Notes under the pieces: model-generated | The model's input: the letters and a program-made list of their open reading frames with translations, nothing else | Told to the model about the DNA's origin: nothing | The model's database searches: none | Part shown: piece after piece, positions 11,527 to 61,231 of the stretch | Position numbering within the stretch: the stretch's first letter is position 1 | How the letters are laid out: every line of letters begins with the position of its first letter | Source of the DNA: Candidatus Coprenecus stercorigallinarum | Lineage (GTDB): Bacteria; Bacteroidota; Bacteroidia; Bacteroidales; UBA932 | NCBI GenBank assembly: GCA_018711305.1 | Contig: DVIL01000074.1 | Coordinates: 1 to 64,000, forward strand | Reading direction: 5' to 3' | Length of the DNA stretch: 64,000 bases | Made by a program: the position numbers and the translations under genes

Positions 11527-13095
11527 TCATTTCTCCTCCGCGAGCAGCCCGTCGATGTCGGAACAGATGGCGGTGCCGGAAGCGTAGTCCCAAAGGGTGA
11601 CGGAGCGGATGTTGTAGTAGTAGTACCAGTAGTAATAGAGTTGCTGGACGTAGTCCTGGCGGGCGAGGTCCTTGGCGTCGCGGGCGTCGTTGAGCTCGAG
11701 GACGCTCATGCGGCCGAGCAGGAAGGATTCGACGGAGGCCTGATAACGGGCCGAGGCCACACGGTCGGACTCCTGGGCGAGGGTGAGCTGGCCGGCCTGG
11801 TTGTTGAACTGCTCGGTAAGCAGGAATATATCCTGGTTGAAGTTGAGTTCCTCCTGCTGAAGCTGGGAGCGGACCACGTCGCGGTTGCTCTCGGCCACTT
11901 TGACCTGCCCCTTGCGCTTGCCCCAGTCCAGAATCGGAATCGACAGTCCGATAGACACCACTTCCTGGTCCCGAATGTCGTTGTAGGCCATGGCCAGCTC
12001 GCGGTTCACTCCGGAGTATCCGACTGTCACGTTCAGGTCCACCTGGTACCGCTGGCCCTTGGCTGTGGCTACATCGTAGTCGGCTTCGAGTTTGCGGCGC
12101 AGGATGTTCTGGGCAAATGAGCTGTTGGACAATGCCTTGCTGAGTACATCCTCATAGTCGAGCACAGGCAGGGGAATGGCTTCCGGCAGCACGGCCCGGA
12201 TGGTATCGTTTTCAGAGAGGCCGAGGAAGGCTCTGAGGGAGAACATGGCGGAGTTCAGACTGCTGCGGCAGGAGGTCACCTCTGCCTTGGCCTGCAGGGC
12301 AGAGAGGCTCAGCTGCATAAGCTCGGTCTCGGATATCTGTCCTATGGTCCGCCGCTCCTTGGCGATGGCATAGAGCTTGTCGGCGTTCTCGAGGTTCTGC
12401 TCGGCTATCTTCAGGTTCTCCACGGCGAGGATATAATTGAAAAAATAAGTGACCGTATTCATCTTGACTGTCTCCATGTCCTCGATGTAGGCGGCCCGGG
12501 ACTCGGCGTAACGCACAGGTTCAATTTTCTTGTCCCAACGGAAGGTGTTGACGGAAAACAGAGGCTGGTTGAGGGTCAATGCCACAGGCGCGGCCATGAA
12601 CTCGTTGTATCCGTTCGCCCCCAGCTGCCGCGTCATGTCCAGGCCGGTGGTCAGGGAGACAGTACCTCCGGTAAACGGAATGTTCTGGGTCACGGACAGT
12701 TCTCCGGTAAGTCCCAGCCAGTTGCTGCGCACGTAGCTGTAGGTTCCGTCGGCATTCTGGTAGGAATTGTAGTTGTTGTTGAATGTCGGGAGAGTGCCGT
12801 TGAAGACCAGTTCCGGCAGTCTCTCCGCCTTGTAGGTCCGGTACTGCCAGTATGCGCTCTTTAGCTGGTTAAGAGCCACCGCCGCATCCACCGACTGCCC
12901 GCAGGCCAGGTCCATCGCCCCCTCGAGGGTCAGCTCCATCACGCCGCCCTCCTGTGTCCCGTCCATCCCATCCGGGACATTGCCCATTTCCGGCAGGACG
13001 CTCTCACCGGTATCCTGCGCCGCCAGTCGCTGCCCCGGCACCGCTACCAGCAGCACCGCAATAATCATTGCCGTTTCCCGAAAAATACGTTTCAT
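11527..13095 (-). CDS. TolC-family outer membrane efflux protein
   Basis: 522 aa, signal peptide, paired coiled-coil repeats typical of TolC; last gene of the ABC permease operon. Confidence 0.9.
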   Translation of the reverse strand: MKRIFRETAMIIAVLLVAVPGQRLAAQDTGESVLPEMGNVPDGMDGTQEGGVMELTLEGAMDLACGQSVDAAVALNQLKSAYWQYRTYKAERLPELVFNGTLPTFNNNYNSYQNADGTYSYVRSNWLGLTGELSVTQNIPFTGGTVSLTTGLDMTRQLGANGYNEFMAAPVALTLNQPLFSVNTFRWDKKIEPVRYAESRAAYIEDMETVKMNTVTYFFNYILAVENLKIAEQNLENADKLYAIAKERRTIGQISETELMQLSLSALQAKAEVTSCRSSLNSAMFSLRAFLGLSENDTIRAVLPEAIPLPVLDYEDVLSKALSNSSFAQNILRRKLEADYDVATAKGQRYQVDLNVTVGYSGVNRELAMAYNDIRDQEVVSIGLSIPILDWGKRKGQVKVAESNRDVVRSQLQQEELNFNQDIFLLTEQFNNQAGQLTLAQESDRVASARYQASVESFLLGRMSVLELNDARDAKDLARQDYVQQLYYYWYYYYNIRSVTLWDYASGTAICSDIDGLLAEEK

Positions 13096-13134: not shown

Positions 13135-14442
13135 CTACTCTTCCCTGAGCGCTTCCGAAGGCCGCATCCCTGTGACTTTCCACACGGAGAGGAGGGCCGC
13201 CAGGGCATTTATCAGGAATATCGTTCCGGCCACAATCACTGTCACCACGACTCCCGACAGGAAGCCGGACGTAATCAGAGGCCACGGTGCCATCGACTCG
13301 GCGGACGGATATGCACCGTAACGCACTGCTCCCAGCACTGCCGGTTCTCTTCCCATTGCAAGGGAAAGGTTGAATACGATCAGCACTCCTATGCCGACAG
13401 CGACAGCAGTTATTCCCACGCTCTGCAGCATGGCGTCCAGTCTCAGCCGGGAAGGCGTCGCTCCCATGGCAGTACGGACTCCATATTCGTCCTTGCTCTT
13501 GCGAGAATACAGAAGCCAGAATGACAGCACGCCCAAGGCCATGTTCAGGAGCAGGAACACAATACCGACACGGTAGAAAGTCACATCCTGATTGCTTTGC
13601 ACCTGATTGAGCATAGGCCATGCACTTCTGGCCCGCACGTTGCCGAATGCCGCCTGCGATGATGAGAGCCGGAGATTGACAGCCGCCGTAAGCTCATCCA
13701 TATCCGTACCCGGCTCAGCACGCACCGCCCATCCGGCATAACCGTTGGCTATATCGGAGTTCAGCCCGGACGCCCTGACATTGACAATCATCACGGGCAC
13801 AGGGACTCCGGTAGTCTCCCATACCTTCTGGCGGGACACCACCCCGACTATCGTGTTGGAGCCGCTCTCGTTGGTATCGAAAGACCTGCCTATCGGATTC
13901 TCCCCGGGGAACAGGAACTCCGCAAGATCCTCCGAGACAATCACCCTTCCGGGTATATCCTGTTCAGGAGGCAGACCTCCCTCCGGTAATACCCACCGGT
14001 AGCCCAAGGTCCCGATAAAGTCACTGCCGGTCACTCTATGCATCACGGCGCAACTGATAAAATGGGAAGAATCCCGGAATGCCCCGACAAAATGCTGATT
14101 GTTCACCCCTGGGGAAAACGCCCCGTAGGGAGTGACGGCCTCCGCACCTTCTACAGATGCCAAAAGTTCTCCCATCTGATTGAAATTACCCAAAACACGC
14201 TCAGGATCAGCCGCAGCGGCATCATACATCGGATCGTAATCCGGCAGCACCCTAACAGGTACCATCAGTACCTTCTCCGGCTCCCAGCCCATCGGGATCA
14301 GAGCCTTGCGCAGCTGTTTCATAATCTCCTCATCGGCCAGCAGCCAGCCTACCGTAAACACCATGACGGTCTCTATGACAAACCATGTCCGGCTCATTCT
14401 GTTCTTGTGTCTCTTTCTCATGGCAGATTTACTGTTTTTCAT
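13135..14442 (-). CDS. FtsX/MacB-like ABC transporter permease (B-type, pair 4)
   Basis: DLAEFLFPGENPIGRSF...KDEYGVRTAMGATPSRLRLDAMLQSVGIT...PSEALREE. Confidence 0.9.
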   Translation of the reverse strand: MKNSKSAMRKRHKNRMSRTWFVIETVMVFTVGWLLADEEIMKQLRKALIPMGWEPEKVLMVPVRVLPDYDPMYDAAAADPERVLGNFNQMGELLASVEGAEAVTPYGAFSPGVNNQHFVGAFRDSSHFISCAVMHRVTGSDFIGTLGYRWVLPEGGLPPEQDIPGRVIVSEDLAEFLFPGENPIGRSFDTNESGSNTIVGVVSRQKVWETTGVPVPVMIVNVRASGLNSDIANGYAGWAVRAEPGTDMDELTAAVNLRLSSSQAAFGNVRARSAWPMLNQVQSNQDVTFYRVGIVFLLLNMALGVLSFWLLYSRKSKDEYGVRTAMGATPSRLRLDAMLQSVGITAVAVGIGVLIVFNLSLAMGREPAVLGAVRYGAYPSAESMAPWPLITSGFLSGVVVTVIVAGTIFLINALAALLSVWKVTGMRPSEALREE

Positions 14443-15727
14443 TCAACGAATCGACAACACTGGACCTCATAGTCCTCAATACCGGGATAAGGGAGGAGAG
14501 CAGATTGAGCAGCAGCACGCTCATAAACACAGCCGCATAGACGTCAACCCGCAGGAACATATCCGTCGGGAAGACCAGATCAGCCTGCAGCACCCCCGTT
14601 CCATATCCGGATTTGGAGCCGGCCAGCACCGGAGAGAGCAGCCTCAGCAGACCGCCGGCACAAAACATTCCTGCCAGTCCTCCGATCAGAGTCAGGAGGA
14701 AATTCTCCGAAAGCACCTGCTTCACCAGCACCCCGGCCGAAGCCCCATAGGCCTTGCGCACTCCGAACTCGGCAATCCGCTCCTCCACGCTGGAAGACAC
14801 CATGCCGCTCAGATTGACTGCCGGAATAAGCATCAGCAGGAGCACCATCGCAGCGATTGCCGAGATGAATACTCCGACATGGGCATCTGTGGACGCGCCC
14901 AAATAGGTCAGAGGGACAGTCTCCTCCGGGGATATGTACATGCCGTCAGCCTTGCCGAACGAGGCATTGTATCTGGCTATCACCTCCTCTACCCCTGCCC
15001 TGATTGCAGGGAAATCCCTGCGGCTGCCGGCCAGCAGGCACATCATGTCAGTTCCTACGTAAGGCTCGTTGTGAATGAGCGAAGCCATCTCGCGGCCCAT
15101 CTGTATTGGCAGCCATATCCCAGCATCGGCAAGCATGGCCATAACTGACACGTCCCGCACCACCCCGCATATTCTGAGCGACGTACCGCCGTACATAAGT
15201 TCCCTTCCGGCCGCATCCTCGGTGCCGAAACATCTGCGTGCCGTAGTGGCGGACAGCACCGCCTCGGGGAGCGCCGGATTCCATTCTCCGGAAGGGGCCC
15301 TGCCGGAAATGAACTCGAACTGACAGACTTCCCAGAAGCCGTCATCCACATACAGTTCAGGAACGGTGACAATCCCTCTGCCCGGAACTTCCAGATCCAC
15401 TCCCTTGGTCAGACCGGAATAGGTAATCACGGCCGTATTCTCCACCCCATCAATACCGGCATCCTCCAACAGGGCTGCGAAACGGGAGCTGACCATAGTA
15501 TTCAGCTTGGGATTCCCGTCCTCATCACACAGGAGTACGCTGCCTATGAGCATCATTCTGTCACGGTCTCTTTCAGGGTAAATACTTCTGGAAGCCATCA
15601 GGACAAACATCAGAAACGCCATGATGAAAGCCATGGACAGAGTGACGCCCACTATGTAAAGCAGGCTGTACTGCCGGTTCTTAAGCATTATCTGCCAGCT
15701 CTGGCGGAGGTAAACGGGGAGTTTCAT
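14429..15727 (-). CDS. FtsX/MacB-like ABC transporter permease (A-type, pair 4)
   Basis: MKLPVYLRQSWQIMLKNRQYSLLYIVG...EERIAEFGVRKAYGASAGVLVKQVLSENFLLT. Confidence 0.9.
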   Translation of the reverse strand: MKLPVYLRQSWQIMLKNRQYSLLYIVGVTLSMAFIMAFLMFVLMASRSIYPERDRDRMMLIGSVLLCDEDGNPKLNTMVSSRFAALLEDAGIDGVENTAVITYSGLTKGVDLEVPGRGIVTVPELYVDDGFWEVCQFEFISGRAPSGEWNPALPEAVLSATTARRCFGTEDAAGRELMYGGTSLRICGVVRDVSVMAMLADAGIWLPIQMGREMASLIHNEPYVGTDMMCLLAGSRRDFPAIRAGVEEVIARYNASFGKADGMYISPEETVPLTYLGASTDAHVGVFISAIAAMVLLLMLIPAVNLSGMVSSSVEERIAEFGVRKAYGASAGVLVKQVLSENFLLTLIGGLAGMFCAGGLLRLLSPVLAGSKSGYGTGVLQADLVFPTDMFLRVDVYAAVFMSVLLLNLLSSLIPVLRTMRSSVVDSLNEKQ

Positions 15728-15739
15728 CTTTTCTCTTTT

Positions 15740-16405
15740 TTATCCGATGATACGGCCGTCGAGCATACGGACGATGCGGTCGGTCTGCTTGGCCTGGGAC
15801 TCGTTGTGGGTCACCATCAGGATGGTCTTGCCGCGCTGCTTGTTGACCTCGTGCAGGAGCTCCATGACCTCGGCTCCCATCTTGGAGTCCAGGTTACCGG
15901 TGGGCTCGTCCGCAAGGATGATCGAGGGGTCTCCGACAAGGGCACGGGCGATGGCAACTCTCTGGCACTGACCTCCGGAAAGCTGTGAGGGGAAATGCTT
16001 CACCCTGTGGCTCAGTCCCACGGCCTCGATCATCTTCATGGCCCTTTCCTTGCGCTCGGTCGCTCCCATCTTGCGGTAAAGCAGGGGCATCTGCACGTTG
16101 TCCAGGACGTTGAGCGAGGGAATCAGGTGGAAGCTCTGGAATACAAAGCCTAACTCTGTGTTGCGGAAGCGGGCGGCCTCCCGGGCGTTGAGTCCGGAAA
16201 CGGCCTTGCCGTGCAGCTCCACGGTGCCGGAAGAAGGCTCGTCGAGCAGGCCTGCGATGTTGAGCAGGGTGGACTTTCCGCAGCCGGAAGGTCCCATGAT
16301 ACTTACAAACTCCCCGTCGCGCACTTCGAGGTTGATGTTGTCGAGAGCCATGGTCTCGATCTCGGAGGTTCTGTAGATTTTGGAAATTTCGATAAGCTTG
16401 ATCAT
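15740..16405 (-). CDS. ABC transporter ATP-binding protein (MacB/LolD type)
   Basis: Walker A GPSGCGKST, signature LSGGQCQRVAIARAL, Walker B IILADEPTGNLD. Confidence 0.97.
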   Translation of the reverse strand: MIKLIEISKIYRTSEIETMALDNINLEVRDGEFVSIMGPSGCGKSTLLNIAGLLDEPSSGTVELHGKAVSGLNAREAARFRNTELGFVFQSFHLIPSLNVLDNVQMPLLYRKMGATERKERAMKMIEAVGLSHRVKHFPSQLSGGQCQRVAIARALVGDPSIILADEPTGNLDSKMGAEVMELLHEVNKQRGKTILMVTHNESQAKQTDRIVRMLDGRIIG

Positions 16406-16458: not shown

Positions 16459-17763
16459 TTATTCGTCCTTGAGCACATCCGCCGGCGACTCCCTGAGGGC
16501 TCCGAGCACGGGCACAATGGTCGAGAGGGTCACTACCACGAACAGCACGGCGGCAGTGATGCCGGCCACGGCGAGGAAGTGGCGGACAGGCTCGAACAAT
16601 ACCGGCAGGCTGTCAATGACGACGTCATTCAGATAGCCGGCATAGAGGGCGGTGGCACAGAAGTCGATCTTGCCTATGACAAGGACATTGATCACTATCA
16701 CCAGCCCTACAATCAGGGAAATGAGGAAGAGAATCCACACCTCGGCGAGCTGCTGCAGGACGATGCTGCCCACAGGTCCGCCCATGGCACGGCGCACTCC
16801 GGTCTCCCCCCGCCTCTCCTGTGTCCTCAGCCATGCGAAGGAGGCCACACCTATGAGGATGCACACTAACAGGAAGACGAAGAGGGCCCGCCACATGAAG
16901 GTGTCGTTCACGGTTGACTCCAGATTGCTCTCCAGCGCACTGACGGATGCCACCCTCCAGTTGCCGAAAGCAAGGTCCTCCCTCCATGTCTTCTTGGCCT
17001 GCTGTATGAAGGCTTCCCCGTCCACACCGGGAGCCAGACGGAATATCCACACTACGGACATCCCTTTATCGAGAGCCACGATATCGGCCCCGGCATACAT
17101 CACGAAACTCCGGTACTCCTTGTCCTTCTCGATCTTTACGGGTGCAATCACGCCTGAGATGCGCCAGTTGTACGCCGCATAGTTGCTGAACTGCGAGAGA
17201 CGGCGGCCTACGGGATTCTCCCCGGGGAAAAGCATCTGAGCCAGATCCTCGGTGATGATTACAGTGTTCGGAAGGTCCTCTATCGGAGCTCCCTGCGGCC
17301 ACACCTGCCGGTACTGCAGCAACTGCAGGTCGCTTGCCCCTGCCTCGCGGATATGGTACGCATACTGCACATAAGCCTTGCTTGCGGTATCTGTAATTAC
17401 CGCCTGGTTGTAGTTGCTGTAGTTCAGGCCGGGAAGAGTGGCACCGACCGGAGCCGCGTCCTGTATCTCCGACATCTCCCTGAGAGCGTTGCCGATACGG
17501 TGAAAGTCCTCCGATATGTGCTCCGGAGTATCCATCTCCGGACGGTATCCGCTCTGTCCCACTCCCAAGCGGTCGAGCGTGACGGCATACACTCCCTCCG
17601 CCTCGTATCCGTCCGGAAGATGAGTACGGTATATCCCGGGCCATACGGCATTGACCAGAAACCACGATGCTGCCGCGATGAGAGTCATCTCTATGAAAAG
17701 CCAGGCATTGCCGCGGCGGTAGTACCAGAGCTGTTTGAATATCTGTTTAAGCATAGCTGTCAT
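16459..17763 (-). CDS. FtsX/MacB-like ABC transporter permease (B-type, pair 3)
   Basis: MLKQIFKQLWYYRRGNAWLFIEM...RRGETGVRRAMGGPVGSIVLQQLAEVW. Confidence 0.92.
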   Translation of the reverse strand: MTAMLKQIFKQLWYYRRGNAWLFIEMTLIAAASWFLVNAVWPGIYRTHLPDGYEAEGVYAVTLDRLGVGQSGYRPEMDTPEHISEDFHRIGNALREMSEIQDAAPVGATLPGLNYSNYNQAVITDTASKAYVQYAYHIREAGASDLQLLQYRQVWPQGAPIEDLPNTVIITEDLAQMLFPGENPVGRRLSQFSNYAAYNWRISGVIAPVKIEKDKEYRSFVMYAGADIVALDKGMSVVWIFRLAPGVDGEAFIQQAKKTWREDLAFGNWRVASVSALESNLESTVNDTFMWRALFVFLLVCILIGVASFAWLRTQERRGETGVRRAMGGPVGSIVLQQLAEVWILFLISLIVGLVIVINVLVIGKIDFCATALYAGYLNDVVIDSLPVLFEPVRHFLAVAGITAAVLFVVVTLSTIVPVLGALRESPADVLKDE

Positions 17764-19082
17764 TATTTTGCAGAGTTCAGTGAATCAGTGATGGGCCGGC
17801 GGATAACCTTGGCGGCAGGTATCAGGGCCGAGACAATATTGAGTACCAGGACTATCGCCAAAAGCAGCACATAGAGCTTGAGCCTGAAGAAATCCCGGAC
17901 GGAGAACACCGCGGCCTCCACTTCCTCCATGGAGAAAGCCGTTGCCATGGCCTCCCCTGGCACCATGCCGTTGAGCTGTTCCGAGAACACGCCTAAAAGC
18001 AGGTAGGACAGGACGAGTCCGAGAACTCCGCCCAGTAGGGTCAGCAGCAGGTTCTCGCCCGTAATCTGCTGCAGCACGTCCCCCCGCCAGGCCCCGAAGG
18101 ACTTGCGCACTCCGAACTCACTCATGCGGGCCTCCATGCGGGAGCCGACCATGCCGGAGAGATTGATCATCGGTATCAGCAGGATGAAGAACATGATGCC
18201 TATCCCTATCCATGTAAACGAGGCAGAGGTCATGCCGGTCCATCTCAGGGCCATCTCCCTTACCGAGGGTATCCCGGTCTGGTAGGAGTACACCCACTCC
18301 ACGTCAGAGCCGTTGTTGTACCTTTCGAGCCTGCCTTCCAAAGTCTCCCGTATGGCCCTGAAGTCGCTCCTGTCCCGGGCGAGCAGATACACGAAGTACT
18401 CTCCGAGCAAGGTAGGACGGCCTATGAACTGCTTCAGCCCGGCACTCCGGGCGTCTCCGTCCAGGTCCGGAAGCCACAGCTGGGAGAAAGCGAACGAGGC
18501 CGTCTGCGGCACATCCCGCACCACTCCGCACACCCGGAACTCCCGGTCATTGATGAAAATCCTCTCCCCCACTATATCCTCCCGGCCGTACAGAGCCCTG
18601 GCAAGCGACCCGCAGACCACCGCCTCTGGCGCGGCCTGGTTCCAGCTCGTCTCCGACAGGGCGTGACCGTAGAGGAAATCCAGCTCGAAGACCTTCCAGT
18701 ACTCCGTATCCACGTTTGAGGCCACGCTGCTTACCGCCTCACCCAAGTCATTGACCACCATCGCCGGCTCATAGGCCACAGCCGTCAGAGCCTCCAGGCC
18801 CTCCACCGGCTCGTTCCGGATGAAGCGGTCGATGAATTCCTGGCTGACCCGTGCGTTGGATCCGCCTTCAGAGCCCCGTTGGGCCTCCACAAACGTGGGA
18901 ATCACCAGCATCCTGTCCCTGTGCACCTCCGGATAGGAGTTGTCGAAGTGCATCGACTGCACCGTCAGGTAAGCCATCACCAGCGCCAGCGAGAAGCCCG
19001 TACCGATGATATAGACCGCGCTGTACACCCTCGACTTGCGCAGGTCGTACCACGCCTCTTTTATATACATTCCAAGTTTCAT
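17763..19082 (-). CDS. FtsX/MacB-like ABC transporter permease (A-type, pair 3)
   Basis: MKLGMYIKEAWYDLRKSRVYSAVYIIGTGFS...SEFGVRKSFGAWRGDVLQQITGENLLLTLLGG. Confidence 0.92.
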   Translation of the reverse strand: MKLGMYIKEAWYDLRKSRVYSAVYIIGTGFSLALVMAYLTVQSMHFDNSYPEVHRDRMLVIPTFVEAQRGSEGGSNARVSQEFIDRFIRNEPVEGLEALTAVAYEPAMVVNDLGEAVSSVASNVDTEYWKVFELDFLYGHALSETSWNQAAPEAVVCGSLARALYGREDIVGERIFINDREFRVCGVVRDVPQTASFAFSQLWLPDLDGDARSAGLKQFIGRPTLLGEYFVYLLARDRSDFRAIRETLEGRLERYNNGSDVEWVYSYQTGIPSVREMALRWTGMTSASFTWIGIGIMFFILLIPMINLSGMVGSRMEARMSEFGVRKSFGAWRGDVLQQITGENLLLTLLGGVLGLVLSYLLLGVFSEQLNGMVPGEAMATAFSMEEVEAAVFSVRDFFRLKLYVLLLAIVLVLNIVSALIPAAKVIRRPITDSLNSAK

Positions 19083-19101: not shown

Positions 19102-20400
19102 TTATTCGTCCTTTAAAATATCGGCCGTCCTCTCCCTCAGAGCCTTGCCGAGGGGGATCAGGGCCGCGAGGGTCACCGCAGCCAGCAGCACCGCCGTCAC
19201 TATCCCCGCCACCGCGAGAAAATGGACCGTCGGGTCGTAGAGCAGCGGCAGGCTGTCATAGAGCACCGGCAGCACCTGACCATGCGGGGCAGCGATGTCT
19301 ATCTTGCCTATGACAATGATATTGACGGCCAGGATAAGTCCCAGTACCAACGCAGCGCCGAAAATCAACCACGCCTCGGCCAGTTGCTGCAGGACAATTC
19401 TACCTGCATCCGAACCCAAGGCCCGCCGCACCCCTATCTCGGAACGCCGCATCCTGAGTCTGAGCCAACTGAAGGAAGCCATTGCTATGAGCACATTGGC
19501 TATCAGGAATACCCAGAGCGCCTTCCATTTGAATATTCCGGTAACGACATACATTCCCATCAGTTCCTCCATCGGAGCCACCGAAGCAACTCGCCAATTG
19601 CCGTATGTCATCTCACTGCGCCAGGTCCGGGAAGCCCGGTCAATGAAAGCGCGGGCATCCACATCCGGACGGATACGGAAGATATAGCACGGGGTACCGT
19701 ACCAGAAATTCAGGACACTGACATCGGAGGCCAGTACTGTCGGCACGGGATCCTCGTCAAAACTGAACTTCAGGGGTTCGACAACTCCGGATATCACCCA
19801 GTCCCACTCCTTTGGAGGAGGGCAGGAGGAGGCATCCGAAAGCCGGCGGCCCACCGGATTCTCTCCGGGAAAGAGAGTCATGGCCAGGTCATTGGTTATC
19901 ACGGCCGACCCGGGAACATCCTCTATCGGAGCATCCTTGGGCCATACCTGACGATAGTTCAGAATCTCCATGTCGCGGGCTCCGGTCCTGCGGGTGTGGA
20001 TACAATAGTATATGTTGTTCTCTGCAGAAGAGTCCACAGGAAAGAAATTATTGATGTAATTGCTCTTCAGTCCGGGAAGAGAAGCGCCGGTCTCCGCCCA
20101 TTCGCTCACCTCCGGCATCAGGTCCAGAGCCTGCCCGAAGCGTTCTAGTGCCTCCTTCCGAGCATTTCCCATGTCCGCTTCCGGGGCATAGCCGTCCTGC
20201 CCGTCATACAGGGATTCGAGCTTCATCACATACACGCCCTCGTAATCATAGCCGTAAGGCGCCCTATCCGCGCGGTAGTGCACGGTCCATATCTCATTGA
20301 CCAGAAACCAGGAGGTAACCACTATCACTACCAGCTCCAGCAGCAGCCAGAGGCTGTTCCTGCGGTAGAACCACAACTGTTTGAATATCTGTCTGAGCAT
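19102..20400 (-). CDS. FtsX/MacB-like ABC transporter permease (B-type, pair 2)
   Basis: MLRQIFKQLWFYRRNSLWLLLELV...RRSEIGVRRALGSDAGRIVLQQLAEAW. Confidence 0.92.
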   Translation of the reverse strand: MLRQIFKQLWFYRRNSLWLLLELVVIVVTSWFLVNEIWTVHYRADRAPYGYDYEGVYVMKLESLYDGQDGYAPEADMGNARKEALERFGQALDLMPEVSEWAETGASLPGLKSNYINNFFPVDSSAENNIYYCIHTRRTGARDMEILNYRQVWPKDAPIEDVPGSAVITNDLAMTLFPGENPVGRRLSDASSCPPPKEWDWVISGVVEPLKFSFDEDPVPTVLASDVSVLNFWYGTPCYIFRIRPDVDARAFIDRASRTWRSEMTYGNWRVASVAPMEELMGMYVVTGIFKWKALWVFLIANVLIAMASFSWLRLRMRRSEIGVRRALGSDAGRIVLQQLAEAWLIFGAALVLGLILAVNIIVIGKIDIAAPHGQVLPVLYDSLPLLYDPTVHFLAVAGIVTAVLLAAVTLAALIPLGKALRERTADILKDE

Positions 20401-20406
20401 ACCTGT

Positions 20407-21702
20407 CTATTTTTTAGAGTTCAACGATTCGGTAATGGGCCTGCGCAGTACCTTGAAGGCCGGCACCATGGCAGACAGCAGATTGAGGACAACCACCAGC
20501 ACGAACAGCAGGAGGTAGAGCTTCAGCCGGAAGAAATCCCTGAAGACAAATGCGGGAGCTTCGGCTATTCCCCGTATATCCGCCACTCCGTTCAGCGGCA
20601 GCAGGTCATAGAGCTGGTCCTGCAGCAGGTACAGCAGGAGGTAGGAAAGCAGCAATCCGAGCACACCCCCAAACAGCGTCAGCAACAGGTTCTCCGCCGT
20701 CACCTGACGGATGATGGCCCCGCGCCAGGCTCCGAATGACTTGCGCACTCCGAACTCGGCCATGCGGGCCTCCATCCCGGAGCCGGTCATGCCTGAAAGG
20801 TTGAGCACCGGCACGAGCAGAACCAGCAGCACCACACCGATACCGATCCAGCGGTAAGCCACGGCGCTGCCGAGCATGAATATCCGTTCTTTCTGGGAAG
20901 GTATGCCGTGGGTAAATGTCATCTGCCAGTCATCGCCTCCTGTGCTGTTGTACATCTCCACACGGTCCTCTATCTCCTGGCGCACCCGGCCGAAGTCTCT
21001 CCGGCTGTCGGCCAGCAGCACTATCTCGTAACTGCCCTGCATCCCCCCAAGCGAGGGCACGAGAAGACGCTCAAAGAATGTCTCGATATCCGGAGCCCAG
21101 ATCTGGGCAAAGGCATAGGTAGCCGTCATCGGCACATCCCGGACGACTCCGCAGATGCGAAATTCCCGGCTGTCGAAAAATACTGTCTCACCTGTCACAT
21201 CCTTGCGGCCGAAAAGCAGCACTGCCGCAGACTCGGAAATCATAATTTCAGGCACCGCCCGGTCAGCGGCATCTTCGGGCATCCAGGTACCGTCGGTTAC
21301 ATCAAGCGGGAATATTTTCCTGAAATCAGTGTCAATGAACTCCACCACCATATTCACGGACTCGCGGGAGGCTGTGGTAACTATGAAGTTGTCTGTCTTC
21401 ACAGCTGTCCAGGCCTCGAGTCCGGGGATGGGCGCGGAGAGGAACCTCTGCATAAAATCCTTGTTCACACCACGTTCACGCACAGACCGGGCGTTACTGT
21501 GTGTGTACGTCATGGAGGGTATCGACAGCATCCGGTCGCGGTGCGTCTCCGGATAGATGTTGTCCATACGTACAGACTGCACCGTCAGGTAGGTCATGAC
21601 CATGGCCATCGAGAAAGCGACAGCCAGAATATACACCAGACCGTAGGTCCTGTCCGCCAAAAGGTTGTGCCACGATTCCCTGAAATATACTCCTATCTTC
21701 AT
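20407..21702 (-). CDS. FtsX/MacB-like ABC transporter permease (A-type, pair 2)
   Basis: MKIGVYFRESWHNLLADRTYGLVYILA...AEFGVRKSFGAWRGAIIRQVTAENLLLTLFGG. Confidence 0.92.
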   Translation of the reverse strand: MKIGVYFRESWHNLLADRTYGLVYILAVAFSMAMVMTYLTVQSVRMDNIYPETHRDRMLSIPSMTYTHSNARSVRERGVNKDFMQRFLSAPIPGLEAWTAVKTDNFIVTTASRESVNMVVEFIDTDFRKIFPLDVTDGTWMPEDAADRAVPEIMISESAAVLLFGRKDVTGETVFFDSREFRICGVVRDVPMTATYAFAQIWAPDIETFFERLLVPSLGGMQGSYEIVLLADSRRDFGRVRQEIEDRVEMYNSTGGDDWQMTFTHGIPSQKERIFMLGSAVAYRWIGIGVVLLVLLVPVLNLSGMTGSGMEARMAEFGVRKSFGAWRGAIIRQVTAENLLLTLFGGVLGLLLSYLLLYLLQDQLYDLLPLNGVADIRGIAEAPAFVFRDFFRLKLYLLLFVLVVVLNLLSAMVPAFKVLRRPITESLNSKK

Positions 21703-21705
21703 AAC

Positions 21706-22965
21706 TTATTTCTTTTTAGACGGTTTGATTTTCAGTTCCGGCTGCCTGGAGTAGTCCTGCATGTCGGAGATGACCACCTGCTCGCCCGGCTCGATGCCGG
21801 AGATGACCTCCACATAGTCGTAGTTGGCCTCGCCGAGAGCCACGCGGCGGCGGACCAGACGGTCACCCTCGCGGACGAAGAGGTCGTAATTGCCCTCACC
21901 CTTGTAATATGTGCCCGAGGGCAGGCGGAGGACATTCTCGCGGTAGGCGTAGACCACGTAGATGTCGCACTTCAGGCCAGAGCGCAGGCCCGGGGCAGAC
22001 TCGTTGTCGAGCTGTACGGTAAAGGATATCAGACCGTCGGTGGACATCGGGGAGAGTACCGACACCATGCCGATGAGGGTGTCCCGTCCGGCCAGCACTG
22101 TAGTCCGGTAGCCCTCGGCTATCTTCCCGGCCTGCATGTCGCCCAGCTCGCCCTCCACCTTGAAGCGGGTGAGGTCGGCCAGCATCGCCAGCTTCTCGCC
22201 CTGCCCCACCTGGGCGCCTATCTCGCTGTTGATGAACGTAAGGGTCGCAGCGTAGGGCGCACGGACACCCGCGTCGTAGAGCCGGCGGCGGGTCTGCTCC
22301 TTGTTCTTGCGGAAGATGGACAGCTCCAGCTCGGCCACGGCTTCATCAGCGGCGGCCAGATCCCGCTGGTTCTGCAGTTTGCGGCGGTTGTCCTCCAGCT
22401 TGAGCGACGACACCGTGTAGTCCAGCTCGGCCTCGCGCACCTTGTCCGGAGTACCTGCCCCGAGGGAGTCCAGATACTTCTCGTTGCGCAGGGAAGCCGC
22501 CTTGCGGTCCAGCTCCATCTCCTGAATCTCGATATTCATCTCCATCTCCGAGATGCTGTTACGGTTGGTGATACGCAGCTGTTCCAGTTTCAGTTCCTTC
22601 ATCCGCTCCTCGTCCAGCATATTGTCGTACTCGGTCTGCACCTCCGAGAGTTCCAGGCGCAACAGGGGTTCACCCGCCTGCACCACCTCTCCTGCCCGCT
22701 TGTAAACCTCCATCACACGGGAGGTAATCGGGGAGTTGATGATCTCCTCGTAGCCCGGCACCACCTTTCCGGTAGCCGACACCGCGAAATCTATCGAACC
22801 GGTGTCCACCGTTGCGAGCCTCAGGCTGCTCTCCTTTACCGAAGGCTGAATCAGCACTGCCAGCAGCACCACCGCCACCACGACAGCCGCGCCGCCCGCA
22901 CTCCAGCGGATGATGACTTTGCGGCGGTCCTGCCATTTTTCTTTTGTTGTAAGTTCTCTATCCAT
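21706..22965 (-). CDS. HlyD/MacA-like periplasmic adaptor (membrane fusion protein)
   Basis: Single N-terminal TM, coiled-coil hairpin, GIEPGEQVVISDMQDYSRQPELKIKPSKKK tail. Confidence 0.92.
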   Translation of the reverse strand: MDRELTTKEKWQDRRKVIIRWSAGGAAVVVAVVLLAVLIQPSVKESSLRLATVDTGSIDFAVSATGKVVPGYEEIINSPITSRVMEVYKRAGEVVQAGEPLLRLELSEVQTEYDNMLDEERMKELKLEQLRITNRNSISEMEMNIEIQEMELDRKAASLRNEKYLDSLGAGTPDKVREAELDYTVSSLKLEDNRRKLQNQRDLAAADEAVAELELSIFRKNKEQTRRRLYDAGVRAPYAATLTFINSEIGAQVGQGEKLAMLADLTRFKVEGELGDMQAGKIAEGYRTTVLAGRDTLIGMVSVLSPMSTDGLISFTVQLDNESAPGLRSGLKCDIYVVYAYRENVLRLPSGTYYKGEGNYDLFVREGDRLVRRRVALGEANYDYVEVISGIEPGEQVVISDMQDYSRQPELKIKPSKKK

Positions 22966-23004: not shown

Positions 23005-24327
23005 TTACTCGTCTCTGAGGGCCTCGACGGGCGGCCGGCGGAGCGCTCCGGCAGCGGGAATGAGGATTGCTACGGTCACCGCCAGCAGCATGGTTCCTAA
23101 GACAATCCCCTCCACCGCGAGGAAGTGCGCCACGGGATCGAAGAGCAGAGGGAAGTCAGCGGCATTGAGGGGCAGACTGCCTGTAAAATTCTGCGGGGCC
23201 GTAATGTCTATCTTGCCGATAAGCAGTACATTGAGCGTTATCAGTATTCCGAGGACAGCTGCCGTAGCGAAGATGATCCAGACCTCGCTCATGTAGTGCA
23301 GGAGAATGCCGCGGGGAGAGTCTCCCATTGCCCTGCGGACACCTATCTCACCGCGCCGCTCCTCCATCCGGAGCCAACCGGTCGAGGCTACTGTCAGCAG
23401 AGCATTGATTATCAGGAAAATGAAAATGGCATTCCAGATAAAATTGCTGTCCAATACCGTCAGCTGCACATAGCTGTCGATACGCTCCTGATAACTGAAC
23501 ACATCGCTGACCCGGTAATTCCCAAAACGAAGGGTCTTTCTCCACTCTAAGCCAGCCTTCCCGATAAATTCCTCAGCATCCACACCGGGCTTGAGGCGGA
23601 AGGCGCAGCATATCTCATCCATGGCATAGGCGGCGAAATCGGGAATGTTCATGAAAACTGCCGGGACATTGTCCGAGCAGCCGTTGGACCTGATACTGCG
23701 GATTACTCCCACGATCGGAGTTGTCCAGCCGTACTCCATATCCGGCTCGGCACAGGCCGACTCGAGGTTCCTGCCTATAGGATTCTCGCCCGGAAATACG
23801 TACTCGGCGAGATCCTCCGTGATAATCATAGACATGGGCTGGGAGTCGTCTATCCTGCCGTTCTCGGGCCATACCACCTCATAGCCGAACACCTCGAAAT
23901 CATCCGGTCCCATAGCCCTGTCAATTGCCAGCAGAGTAATGTATGTCACACTGTCAAGCTCGAGACCTCCTGCGGATATAGGGCCCAGTCCAGGGTTGGA
24001 ATCCGTTATGGGCGCCGCGCACAGTACTTCCGGCATACTCTTGATCCGGTCCATTATGCGGCCGAAATCCCGTGACCACGCTTCCTCGCCGTCAGCCTGC
24101 GGGTCGTAATCCCTATTGCCGGACTGCAGCAGGTCGAACGATACGACGTACACGCCCTCGTACTTCATCCCGTCCGGCACAGCATTGATGCGGTAGCGGG
24201 GAGTCCAGGTCTGATGGACGAGGAACCATGAGACAGCGATTATGATCACCAGCTCGATGAAAAGCCAGGAGTTGCTCCTGCGGTAGAACCACAGCTGTTT
24301 GAATATCTGTTTGAGCATATCTGTCAT
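23005..24327 (-). CDS. FtsX/MacB-like ABC transporter permease (B-type, pair 1)
   Basis: MLKQIFKQLWFYRRSNSWLFIELV...RRGEIGVRRAMGDSPRGILLHYMSEVW. Confidence 0.92.
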   Translation of the reverse strand: MTDMLKQIFKQLWFYRRSNSWLFIELVIIIAVSWFLVHQTWTPRYRINAVPDGMKYEGVYVVSFDLLQSGNRDYDPQADGEEAWSRDFGRIMDRIKSMPEVLCAAPITDSNPGLGPISAGGLELDSVTYITLLAIDRAMGPDDFEVFGYEVVWPENGRIDDSQPMSMIITEDLAEYVFPGENPIGRNLESACAEPDMEYGWTTPIVGVIRSIRSNGCSDNVPAVFMNIPDFAAYAMDEICCAFRLKPGVDAEEFIGKAGLEWRKTLRFGNYRVSDVFSYQERIDSYVQLTVLDSNFIWNAIFIFLIINALLTVASTGWLRMEERRGEIGVRRAMGDSPRGILLHYMSEVWIIFATAAVLGILITLNVLLIGKIDITAPQNFTGSLPLNAADFPLLFDPVAHFLAVEGIVLGTMLLAVTVAILIPAAGALRRPPVEALRDE

Positions 24328-25616
24328 TTTTTATAGTTCAACGATTCGGTGATGGGGCGCCGGATGACCTTGGCGGCAGGTATCAGGGCCGATACAAGGT
24401 TGAGCACCAAGATGATTCCCAGCAGAGCCAGGTACAGCCAGAGCTTGAAGAAATCCCTGAAATCGAAGAATCCCGAATCGGGAATCTCTCCCATCTGCGA
24501 TATATTGTCCATGAAACTGCCTGGCACCAGTGAGTTGAGCTGACGCGAGAACAGGGCGATGATCAGCCAAGCGGCCAGCAGGCCCACAACTCCACCGATA
24601 ATGGTCATCAGCAGGTTCTCCCCCGCTATCTGGGCTATGATGGAGCGGGGTCCGGCCCCGAACGACTTGCGGGTACCGAACTCGGTCAGACGGGCCTCCA
24701 TGCGGGAGCCCACCATGCCCGAGAGATTGAGCAGCGGCACTATAAGGATAATCAGCACCACTCCTATGCCCAGCCACGTATATGCCGCCGAGCTCAGCTC
24801 GCTCCAGGCGAACAGCGACTTGCGGTAGGAGTCGAACGACTTCAGTTCCATCGTTATACCATTTGCCTCCGCATGCCGGCTCACTCTGCCGGTTATCTCC
24901 TCCTTGATAATGCCGAAATCCGATCTGTCCTCAGCTAAAATCAGCAGCGTTCCCATTCCAAGAAGTCCGCTCGGAGAGAAGTCGCTGTCCTCGCTCAGGC
25001 TCTGAGGCAGCCATACTCCGGCAAAAGCCGTGACAGCACTCATCGGCACATCCCTTACGACTCCGCATACGGTCATTGTGTGCCCGCCAAAGTAAACCGT
25101 CTCGCCTACCGCATCCGTCCGGCCGAACAGACTCCGCGCCGTGGACTCCGATATGACGGTCTCGGCAGTATTGGGCACCATCCCGTTCTGCGATATCGCC
25201 CGTCCTTCAATGAAATCGTAGTCGAACACCTTCCAGAAATCCAGATCCACATATTTCCCGTACACCTTCGTCACCTCCTCTTCCCCGCTCTCCAGCACCA
25301 CAAAACCTCCGGTCGCCGGACATGCCACAGACCAGACCTCCACTCCAGGCACATCCCGCATGAACTGCTCCGCGAACTTTGAGGTCACTCCGCTCTGCCA
25401 GTACGTCTCGTCATTCATCTCAGCAACCGATTTGAGCACCATCATCCTGTCCCGGTGCGTCTCCGGAACCGTGTTGACCACCCTCGACGACAACACCGTC
25501 AGGAAGGCCATCACCAGCGACAGCGACAGAGCCGTCCCTGCAATGAACACGGCACTGTACACCCTGTTCATCCGTAGGTTGTACCATGCCTGCTTGAAAT
25601 ACATCCTTAATTTCAT
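24324..25616 (-). CDS. FtsX/MacB-like ABC transporter permease (A-type, pair 1)
   Basis: MKLRMYFKQAWYNLRMNRVYSAVFIAG...TEFGTRKSFGAGPRSIIAQIAGENLLMTIIGG; 4-nt overlap with the next gene. Confidence 0.92.
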   Translation of the reverse strand: MKLRMYFKQAWYNLRMNRVYSAVFIAGTALSLSLVMAFLTVLSSRVVNTVPETHRDRMMVLKSVAEMNDETYWQSGVTSKFAEQFMRDVPGVEVWSVACPATGGFVVLESGEEEVTKVYGKYVDLDFWKVFDYDFIEGRAISQNGMVPNTAETVISESTARSLFGRTDAVGETVYFGGHTMTVCGVVRDVPMSAVTAFAGVWLPQSLSEDSDFSPSGLLGMGTLLILAEDRSDFGIIKEEITGRVSRHAEANGITMELKSFDSYRKSLFAWSELSSAAYTWLGIGVVLIILIVPLLNLSGMVGSRMEARLTEFGTRKSFGAGPRSIIAQIAGENLLMTIIGGVVGLLAAWLIIALFSRQLNSLVPGSFMDNISQMGEIPDSGFFDFRDFFKLWLYLALLGIILVLNLVSALIPAAKVIRRPITESLNYKK

Positions 25617-25772
25617 ATACTGTTTTTTATCCGTTTCTTCATTATTTCTTCCGTCTCACATCTCCTTTCCCTTCCCTATTTCCTTCCGCATCACATCTTT
25701 CTTTTCCCCCAATTTCCCCTCATCACAAAGTCCACCCTTAAAGCGGACACTCCTATCCCCCGCACAGCACAC

Positions 25773-25788
25773 GGCAACCACCGTGCCA
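25773..25788 (-). promoter_or_regulatory. Sigma-54 (RpoN) -24/-12 promoter: TGGCACGGTGGTTGCC
   Basis: Exact GG-N10-GC spacing; matches TGGCACG-N4-TTGC; about 145 nt upstream of the first permease ATG. Confidence 0.75.
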
Positions 25789-25843
25789 CTTTTATATCGT
25801 ACTGATTAACAAATATTTACAAACATAAAACAGTGTGCGAAAA

Positions 25844-25904
25844 CGGACAACTGTCCGATATCGGACACCTCCCGGCGGTCAATCCGGACACCCTGTTGCG
25901 GACA
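25844..25904. promoter_or_regulatory. Enhancer/operator array: CGGACA-AC-TGTCCG-ATAT-CGGACA plus two further CGGACA
   Basis: Perfect 16-bp palindrome TGTCCGATATCGGACA at 25852-25867, CGGACA at 25844, 25885 and 25899; located upstream of the sigma-54 promoter. Confidence 0.65.
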
Positions 25905-60235: not shown

Positions 60236-61231
60236 TTAGTCTACGAGTGAGATGCGCTTGAAGACGGTTACCTTGGCCTCTTTGTCAACGGCTGCAATAG
60301 CTGCCTTTACAGAGGTCTTGCCGTCGCCCATCTGGTACTCCTGCTCCTCAAGGGTATTCTCCTTGAAGAACTTGTTGAGACGGCCGTTGGCGATGTTGTT
60401 GACCATGGCCTCCTGGAGGTTGGCGGCCTTCTCGGCGGAGACAGTCTTGATGATCTCGCGGGCCTGGTCAGCCTGCTCGGGGGTGAGCCAGCCTTTGGCA
60501 GTGTTGGACTGGATGTGGTCCTCGCTGTCTACGTGGGCAGGGTTGATTCCGGCCTTGGTGAGGGCTGCATCAACAGCCTTCTTGACGAGTTCTTCCTTGG
60601 TCTTCTCTACGGCCACTTTGAGCTCCTCGTCGATCACATTCTGAGGCACGGCCTCTTTGTTGACAGCGACGGGATTCATAGAAGCCACCTGCATGGCCAC
60701 GCCCTTTGCAAGATCGAGGGGAACTTCCTTGTTGAAGCCTACGATGGCACCGAGCTTGCCGTTGATGGTGTGGATGTAGGAAATGATGTAAGGAGCCTCT
60801 ACTTTCTCGTATGCTACAAGAGAGTGCTTCTCACCTGTCTTGCCTATCTGTTCGGTGATGGCAGCCTCCACTGTACGGCCATCTGCAATGGTGCAGGCCT
60901 TGAGGGCTTCCATGTCAGCAGGCATAGCTTTGATGGCTGCGTCTGCAATAGCATTTGCAAGTGCCTGGAACTCCTCGTTCTTGGCTACGAAGTCTGTCTC
61001 GCAGCCGAGGCAGAGCAGTATTCCCTTGCTGCCGTCAACCTTTGCTACTACTGCACCCTCGGAGGTCTCGCGGTCAGCCCTCTTGGCAGCCACGAGCTTA
61101 CCTTTCTCGCGGATGATCTCCTTTGCTCTCTCGTAATCGCCGTTAGCCTCGATGAGGGCCTTTTTGCAGTCCATCATACCGGCTCCGGTCATCTTGCGAA
61201 GCTTCTGAACATCTATTGCTTTGATTTCCAT
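60236..61231 (-). CDS. tsf: Elongation factor Ts
   Basis: [37 protein letters not shown]. Confidence 0.98.

Follow-up and report, generated by a model that had tools for sequence, protein, structure and literature searches.

A predicted sigma-54 promoter with paired upstream palindromes before a MacAB-TolC-like efflux operon in an uncultured gut Bacteroidales genome

Background

Two-component activation of the NtrC family involves a -24/-12 core, tandem palindromic upstream sites, a regulator of REC-AAA+-HTH architecture and a partner kinase, and all of these have counterparts in the genome described here, that of Candidatus Coprenecus stercorigallinarum, where a predicted promoter precedes an efflux operon. 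Two features depart from the usual layout, namely that the candidate regulator, encoded on contig C47, is unlinked to its target operon in its own genome, and that its sigma-54-contact loop reads GAFTDA, not GAFTGA. GAFTDA is present in all 16 C47-type loci that were read, where GAFTGA is usual. In the available portions of the relevant papers, GAFTGA was called invariant and enhancer-binding proteins were retained only if they carried it (PMC12316311), GAFTDA was listed among the variants expected to keep activity (PMC4641369), and VfmH, a protein with GAFTDA, gave no sigma-54 pull-down, the reason being left open (PMC10714721).

As far as its available text goes, the first of these papers is also a survey in which predicted sigma-54 promoters were enriched before COG0577 FtsX-like permeases in Bacteroidia, which was called the first evidence of such a link (PMC12316311). 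It concerns the same kind of target gene, the same bacterial class and likewise a predicted sigma-54 promoter, but it used promoter matrices and, in that text, left the activator and enhancer of these operons unnamed; the activator proposed below would fail its GAFTGA filter. The accessible part of another study linked the sigma-54 regulon of Flavobacterium psychrophilum to envelope stress and gliding (PMC9723704). PMC3162934 does not mention Bacteroides, Porphyromonas, Bacteroidales, FtsX, MacB or efflux, and the portions at hand of PMC10434189 and PMC5524665 contain nothing on the present circuit. A literature search covering few subscription-journal papers and few preprints found no activator or enhancer named for these operons. 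Judging from these partly available sources, the promoter class and the kind of target were already known in outline, and the activator, the enhancer, the fixed geometry and the loop variant are new here.

The operon

The window, i.e. the whole 64,000-nucleotide stretch that was analysed (C43:1-64000), carries an operon of 11 genes running from 25616 down to 11527, with a largest internal gap of 53 bp and with 232 bp between the TolC-type gene and the next gene:

24324-25616, minus strand: MacB_PCD/FtsX permease, first gene (Pfam)
23005-24327, minus strand: FtsX permease, pair partner (Pfam)
21706-22965, minus strand: HlyD/MacA-type periplasmic adaptor (Pfam)
20407-21702, minus strand: MacB_PCD/FtsX permease (Pfam)
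19102-20400, minus strand: FtsX-type permease (by reading, from likeness to 23005-24327)
17763-19082, minus strand: MacB_PCD/FtsX permease (Pfam)
16459-17763, minus strand: FtsX-type permease (by reading, from likeness to 23005-24327)
15740-16405, minus strand: ABC ATPase (Pfam)
14429-15727, minus strand: MacB_PCD/FtsX permease (Pfam)
13135-14442, minus strand: permease-like pair partner (from ORF and position)
11527-13095, minus strand: TolC-type outer-membrane efflux protein, last gene (Pfam)

Adaptor, ATPase, MacB_PCD/FtsX permease and channel, the components of a MacAB-TolC-like exporter, are all present by Pfam, and the operon is predicted to encode an envelope efflux or export machine of this kind. 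As in tripartite ABC export of the MacAB-TolC type, these components lie within one operon; unlike in MacAB-TolC, ATPase and permease are encoded as distinct proteins, and a set of eight half-size FtsX/MacB-type permeases accompanies a single ATPase, a single HlyD-type adaptor and a single TolC-type channel. The eight permease ORFs form four pairs, the number of pairs varies among relatives, and the sharing of one ATPase, adaptor and channel by all eight suggests that the permease pairs are interchangeable.

The predicted promoter and its upstream palindromes

Three predicted regulatory elements precede the first permease gene:

25852-25867, minus strand: distal enhancer site (UAS1), perfect palindrome TGTCCGATATCGGACA, starting 79 bp before the start of the -24 element
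25834-25849, minus strand: proximal enhancer site (UAS2), TGTCCGTTTTCGCACA, with one mismatch, starting 61 bp before the start of the -24 element
25774-25788, minus strand: sigma-54 core promoter, TGGCACGGTGGTTGC, an exact match to the consensus TGGCAC-N5-TTGC, with a predicted start near 25762

The original prediction, of an RpoN-consensus match with GG-N10-GC spacing about 145 nt upstream of the first permease ATG, was borne out: the minus-strand reading of 25788 to 25773, TGGCACGGTGGTTGCC, is exact for TGGCAC-N5-TTGC, and the ATG at 25616 is about 146 nt away from the predicted start and 156 nt away from the motif's end. By itself, however, the core motif is weak evidence, close to chance frequency, because 37 of 300 dinucleotide shuffles of the window hold at least one exact match. 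The window has two such matches against 0.13 expected, the second (60745-60759, plus strand) being antisense within an elongation-factor-Ts-like ORF and probably due to chance; genome-wide there are four, and two for the reversed pattern.

It is the context, i.e. the upstream palindromes and their conservation, that makes the core match convincing. The two palindromes, offset by 18 bp and absent from the original prediction, are the strongest local evidence for a sigma-54 promoter. The perfect one occurs once in the window, in none of the 300 shuffles and twice in the genome, the second copy lying inside an ORF on contig C67; the proximal site is perfect in several relatives. The strict palindrome-plus-core pattern occurs only once in the genome, and it was found 13 times, in 10 of 395 genomes of the phylum, with no match for the reversed control. 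Given these counts and the shuffles, the combination of core and palindrome is far beyond chance.

A palindrome-like unit, CTTCCGAAGGAG, is repeated six times just upstream of the promoter (25943, 25982, 26060, 26099, 27050 and 27089).

Sigma factor and candidate activators in the genome

A single rpoN gene is present in the genome (G000; 2.14 Mb in 102 contigs, 94% complete); it encodes a complete RpoN of 469 amino acids with the activator-interacting, core-binding and DNA-binding domains, so the refutation that absence of rpoN would have provided fails. As originally claimed, no PF00158 protein is encoded in the window. Among eight PF00158 matches in the genome, four are weak (20-35 bits) and belong, by reading, to Clp- or RuvB-like AAA proteins; the four strong ones (225-247 bits), true enhancer-binding proteins, are as follows:

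Contig C30: no Fis-type HTH seen
Contig C47: REC-AAA-HTH_8, with a histidine kinase gene next
C55:18896: without REC, beside an LptE-like gene
C55:68674 (68203-69606): REC-AAA-HTH with a kinase, oriented divergently from its own TolC-HlyD-permease-ATPase operon

The C47 regulator has the domains of the NtrC family (PF00072, PF00158 and HTH_8 by Pfam), and its partner histidine kinase matches HAMP, PAS, HisKA and HATPase_c. The NtrC-type activator that the original prediction implied thus has a candidate outside the window, whose orthologues adjoin the same operon in relatives.

Conservation within the genus

Relatives of the first permease are found in 16 of the 19 genomes of the genus and orthologues of the C47 regulator (at least 72% identity over its length) in 15; the three genomes that lack the permease (G005, G173, G179) also lack the regulator, and one genome, G197 (81% complete, 6% contaminated), has permeases but no regulator orthologue. 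In G197 and G191 the start of the operon runs off the contig, leaving 14 assessable genomes, and in all 14 a palindrome with no or one mismatch stands at fixed spacing from a core, before the first permease in 12 and before HlyD in two (G075 and G151). An alignment of 13 of these promoters, leaving out G151 with its core AGGCACAAGGTTTGC, has invariant columns at 12 of 16 positions in UAS1, 10 of 15 in the core and 7 of 16 in UAS2, against 3 of 45 in the spacer and 0 of 15 in the downstream flank. Ten of the 13 have TTGT as their -12 element.

Of the 15 genomes that have the regulator, six carry its gene beside the operon, on one contig: it is divergent to the operon at a distance of about 260 bp in G087, separated from it by one gene in G046, G185, G075 and G167 (in the last from coordinates and the gene seen), and forms the operon end in G151. 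Its orthologues also occur beyond the genus, where four genomes carry the site before an operon that ends in the regulator gene. Because of this linkage the C47 response regulator is the probable activator of the window operon.

The promoter of a locus in another genus (L092, genome G165) is nearly identical to that of G167 (L060), and G167 has two regulator copies, which points to either transfer or cross-binning of metagenome bins.

Family and phylum surveys

Across 199 genomes of the family, the pattern TGTC-N8-GACA-N38-68-TGGCA-N6-TTGY gave 22 matches in 20 genomes, 12 of them in the genus, against 5 matches, each in a different genome, for the reversed control. This loose form has a background, since its N9 variant (N9 for N8) is matched in 22 of the 199 genomes, though not in the genome studied here. 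Of the eight matches outside the genus, five have a perfect TGTCCG palindrome, and the genes that follow encode a permease, HlyD, ATPase, TolC and HlyD, respectively; the other three (G076, G126, G157) are not clearly related.

Orthologues of the C47 regulator were found in six family genomes outside the genus. In four of these (G092, G172, G003, G006) regulator and kinase end an operon with HlyD, ATPase, two permeases and TolC in varying order; before HlyD each has a sigma-54-like core, preceded at 60-61 bp by a palindrome with 0, 0, 0 and 2 mismatches, respectively. G172 was known from the pattern search, whereas G092, G003 and G006 came to light solely through their regulator genes, independently of the site. 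Some of the cores outside the genus are weak, e.g. TGGCATTGTTTTAGT. Neither operon nor site was present in the DNA fetched around the other two orthologues (L246 and L242), those of G154 and of G071, the last on a 4-kb contig.

At the level of the phylum, 10 of the 12 foreign strict sites lie within HlyD/ABC-ATPase/FtsX-permease clusters. The gene that follows is HlyD in six cases, an ABC ATPase in one and a MacB/FtsX-type permease in two, of which one comes after a PadR-like gene and one was named by reading only; a further site (L134/L151) is inside an HlyD-TolC-permease-regulator cluster, its directly downstream gene being seen only as an antisense ORF. No efflux gene lies directly downstream of the remaining two (L137/L156 and L143/L155). 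At least 6 of the 12 fetched regions encode an enhancer-binding protein (L150, L151, L153, L157, L158, L160).

Proposed circuit and alternatives

The predicted sigma-54 promoter before the efflux operon is very probably real, because a two-site enhancer lies just upstream, the arrangement is conserved before the same efflux-pump genes in relatives and a likely activator is present in the genome. A GG-N10-GC core, an rpoN gene in the genome and enhancer-like sites conserved together with the core are all found. We consider it likely, with good confidence, that the -24/-12 core drives the 11-gene operon and is switched by the C47 kinase and regulator through the two palindromes, a reading drawn from sequence, conservation, gene content, domains, linkage and co-occurrence. 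RpoN-RNA polymerase would wait at the core as a closed complex; the C47 membrane histidine kinase, presumably responding to an envelope or antimicrobial signal, would phosphorylate its partner, an NtrC-family response regulator of REC-AAA+-Fis HTH architecture with a GAFTDA loop. Regulator dimers would then bind the two TGTCCG-N4-CGGACA sites 18 bp apart, and a hexamer would assemble and use ATP to open the promoter. The machine might export a drug, a peptide or a lipid.

Several observations count against this circuit: the core alone is near chance, the regulator is unlinked in its own genome, and G197 has the permease without the regulator. To these are added the orthologues at L246 and L242 without operon or site, the TTGT -12 elements, the weak cores outside the genus, the GAFTDA loop with its VfmH precedent, and a reverse search from regulator to operator that yielded no strict sites (see below). 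The frequency of exact core matches in shuffled windows would favour a chance match without function; this reading was rejected and is very improbable, being contradicted by conservation in genus, family and phylum and by the association with palindrome and efflux genes. Somewhat less remote, though still improbable, is a coincidental sigma-54 core in a housekeeping promoter of the sigma-ABfr type (consensus TTG/TAnnTTTG), with the palindromes binding a repressor or other classical regulator. A TTG-N20-TATGTTTG element does overlap the proximal site and the spacer in the window, and the sigma-54 core motif alone is not rare; however, this -33/-7 match is confined to the window, a scan of the 12 other genus promoters giving no sigma-ABfr-like element, whereas core and palindrome persist at constant spacing in genus, family and phylum, and the sigma-ABfr promoter was rejected.

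The promoter could also depend on sigma-54 with the second response regulator (C55:68203-69606) as its activator, an unlikely reading to which we would give slightly more weight than to a housekeeping promoter. The C55 regulator has the same architecture and a similar target operon (TolC-HlyD-permease-ATPase), and in other genera (L153, L158, L160, L163) members of its wider clade adjoin strict TGTCCG sites. However, its HTH in the genus ends in LYNKLKKYG rather than LYRR.EKY, its own target promoter has GTGTCTAATT-type repeats in place of TGTCCG palindromes, and G087 combines a window-type operon and a one-mismatch palindrome with the nearby C47-type regulator and no C55-type orthologue at E<=1e-105; on these grounds it was rejected as activator in the genus. 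In a tree of 28 regulators, C47 groups (84/89) with those of the genus, the family and L150/L151, and C55:68674 falls in another clade.

If the circuit led by the C47 regulator is correct, a bare motif becomes a testable circuit with named promoter, enhancer, activator and kinase, one that concerns an efflux or export operon in uncultured Bacteroidales of the gut and, going by the shared signature, in other Bacteroidota. It would also be natural material for asking whether sigma-54 works with a GAFTDA loop, a question that, in the part available of the VfmH paper, one pull-down left open (PMC10714721). More broadly, there is perhaps an even chance that an old sigma-54 circuit dedicated to MacAB-type envelope export is common to Bacteroidota, with a GAFTDA regulator plus kinase and with a TGTCCG-N4-CGGACA enhancer set at a constant distance from the core, whose regulator is missed by surveys demanding GAFTGA, and that two paralogous circuits in the genus diverged in operator (TGTCCG versus GTGTCTAA) and recognition helix (LYRR versus LYNK). 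The two sigma-54 efflux operons of the genus would then be separately switchable.

Recognition helix and operator

All 10 regulators linked to strict sites outside the genus whose end was read carry LYRR.EKY (L150, L151, L153, L157, L158, L160, L161, L163, L247, L248). The reverse test used 39 loci retrieved solely by their homology to the C55 regulator, two of which (L210, L219) gave no HTH by the pattern used. The fetched stretches of eight LYRR and two LYRK loci held no strict palindrome; there was one palindrome with one mismatch, as well as two TGTTCG variants near a sigma-54-like core, and in one of the eight LYRR loci, G092:C28 (C47-type), a strict site lies just beyond the stretch. The 27 loci with LYNK, LYAK or LYSK helices held no palindromes. 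As the fetched stretches of LYRR/LYRK loci lack strict palindromes, and as G151 has two perfect palindromes yet an LYRK helix, the helix-to-operator code is one-way at best, and no general code is shown.

The GTGTCTAATT-type repeats at C55-type target promoters are conserved in part, in some species of the genus. On contig C55 (L025, 13990-14230), the second operon of the TolC-HlyD-permease-ATPase kind, with its own regulator divergent to it, combines a TGGCACGATAATGGA core with GTGTCTAATT repeats in tandem.
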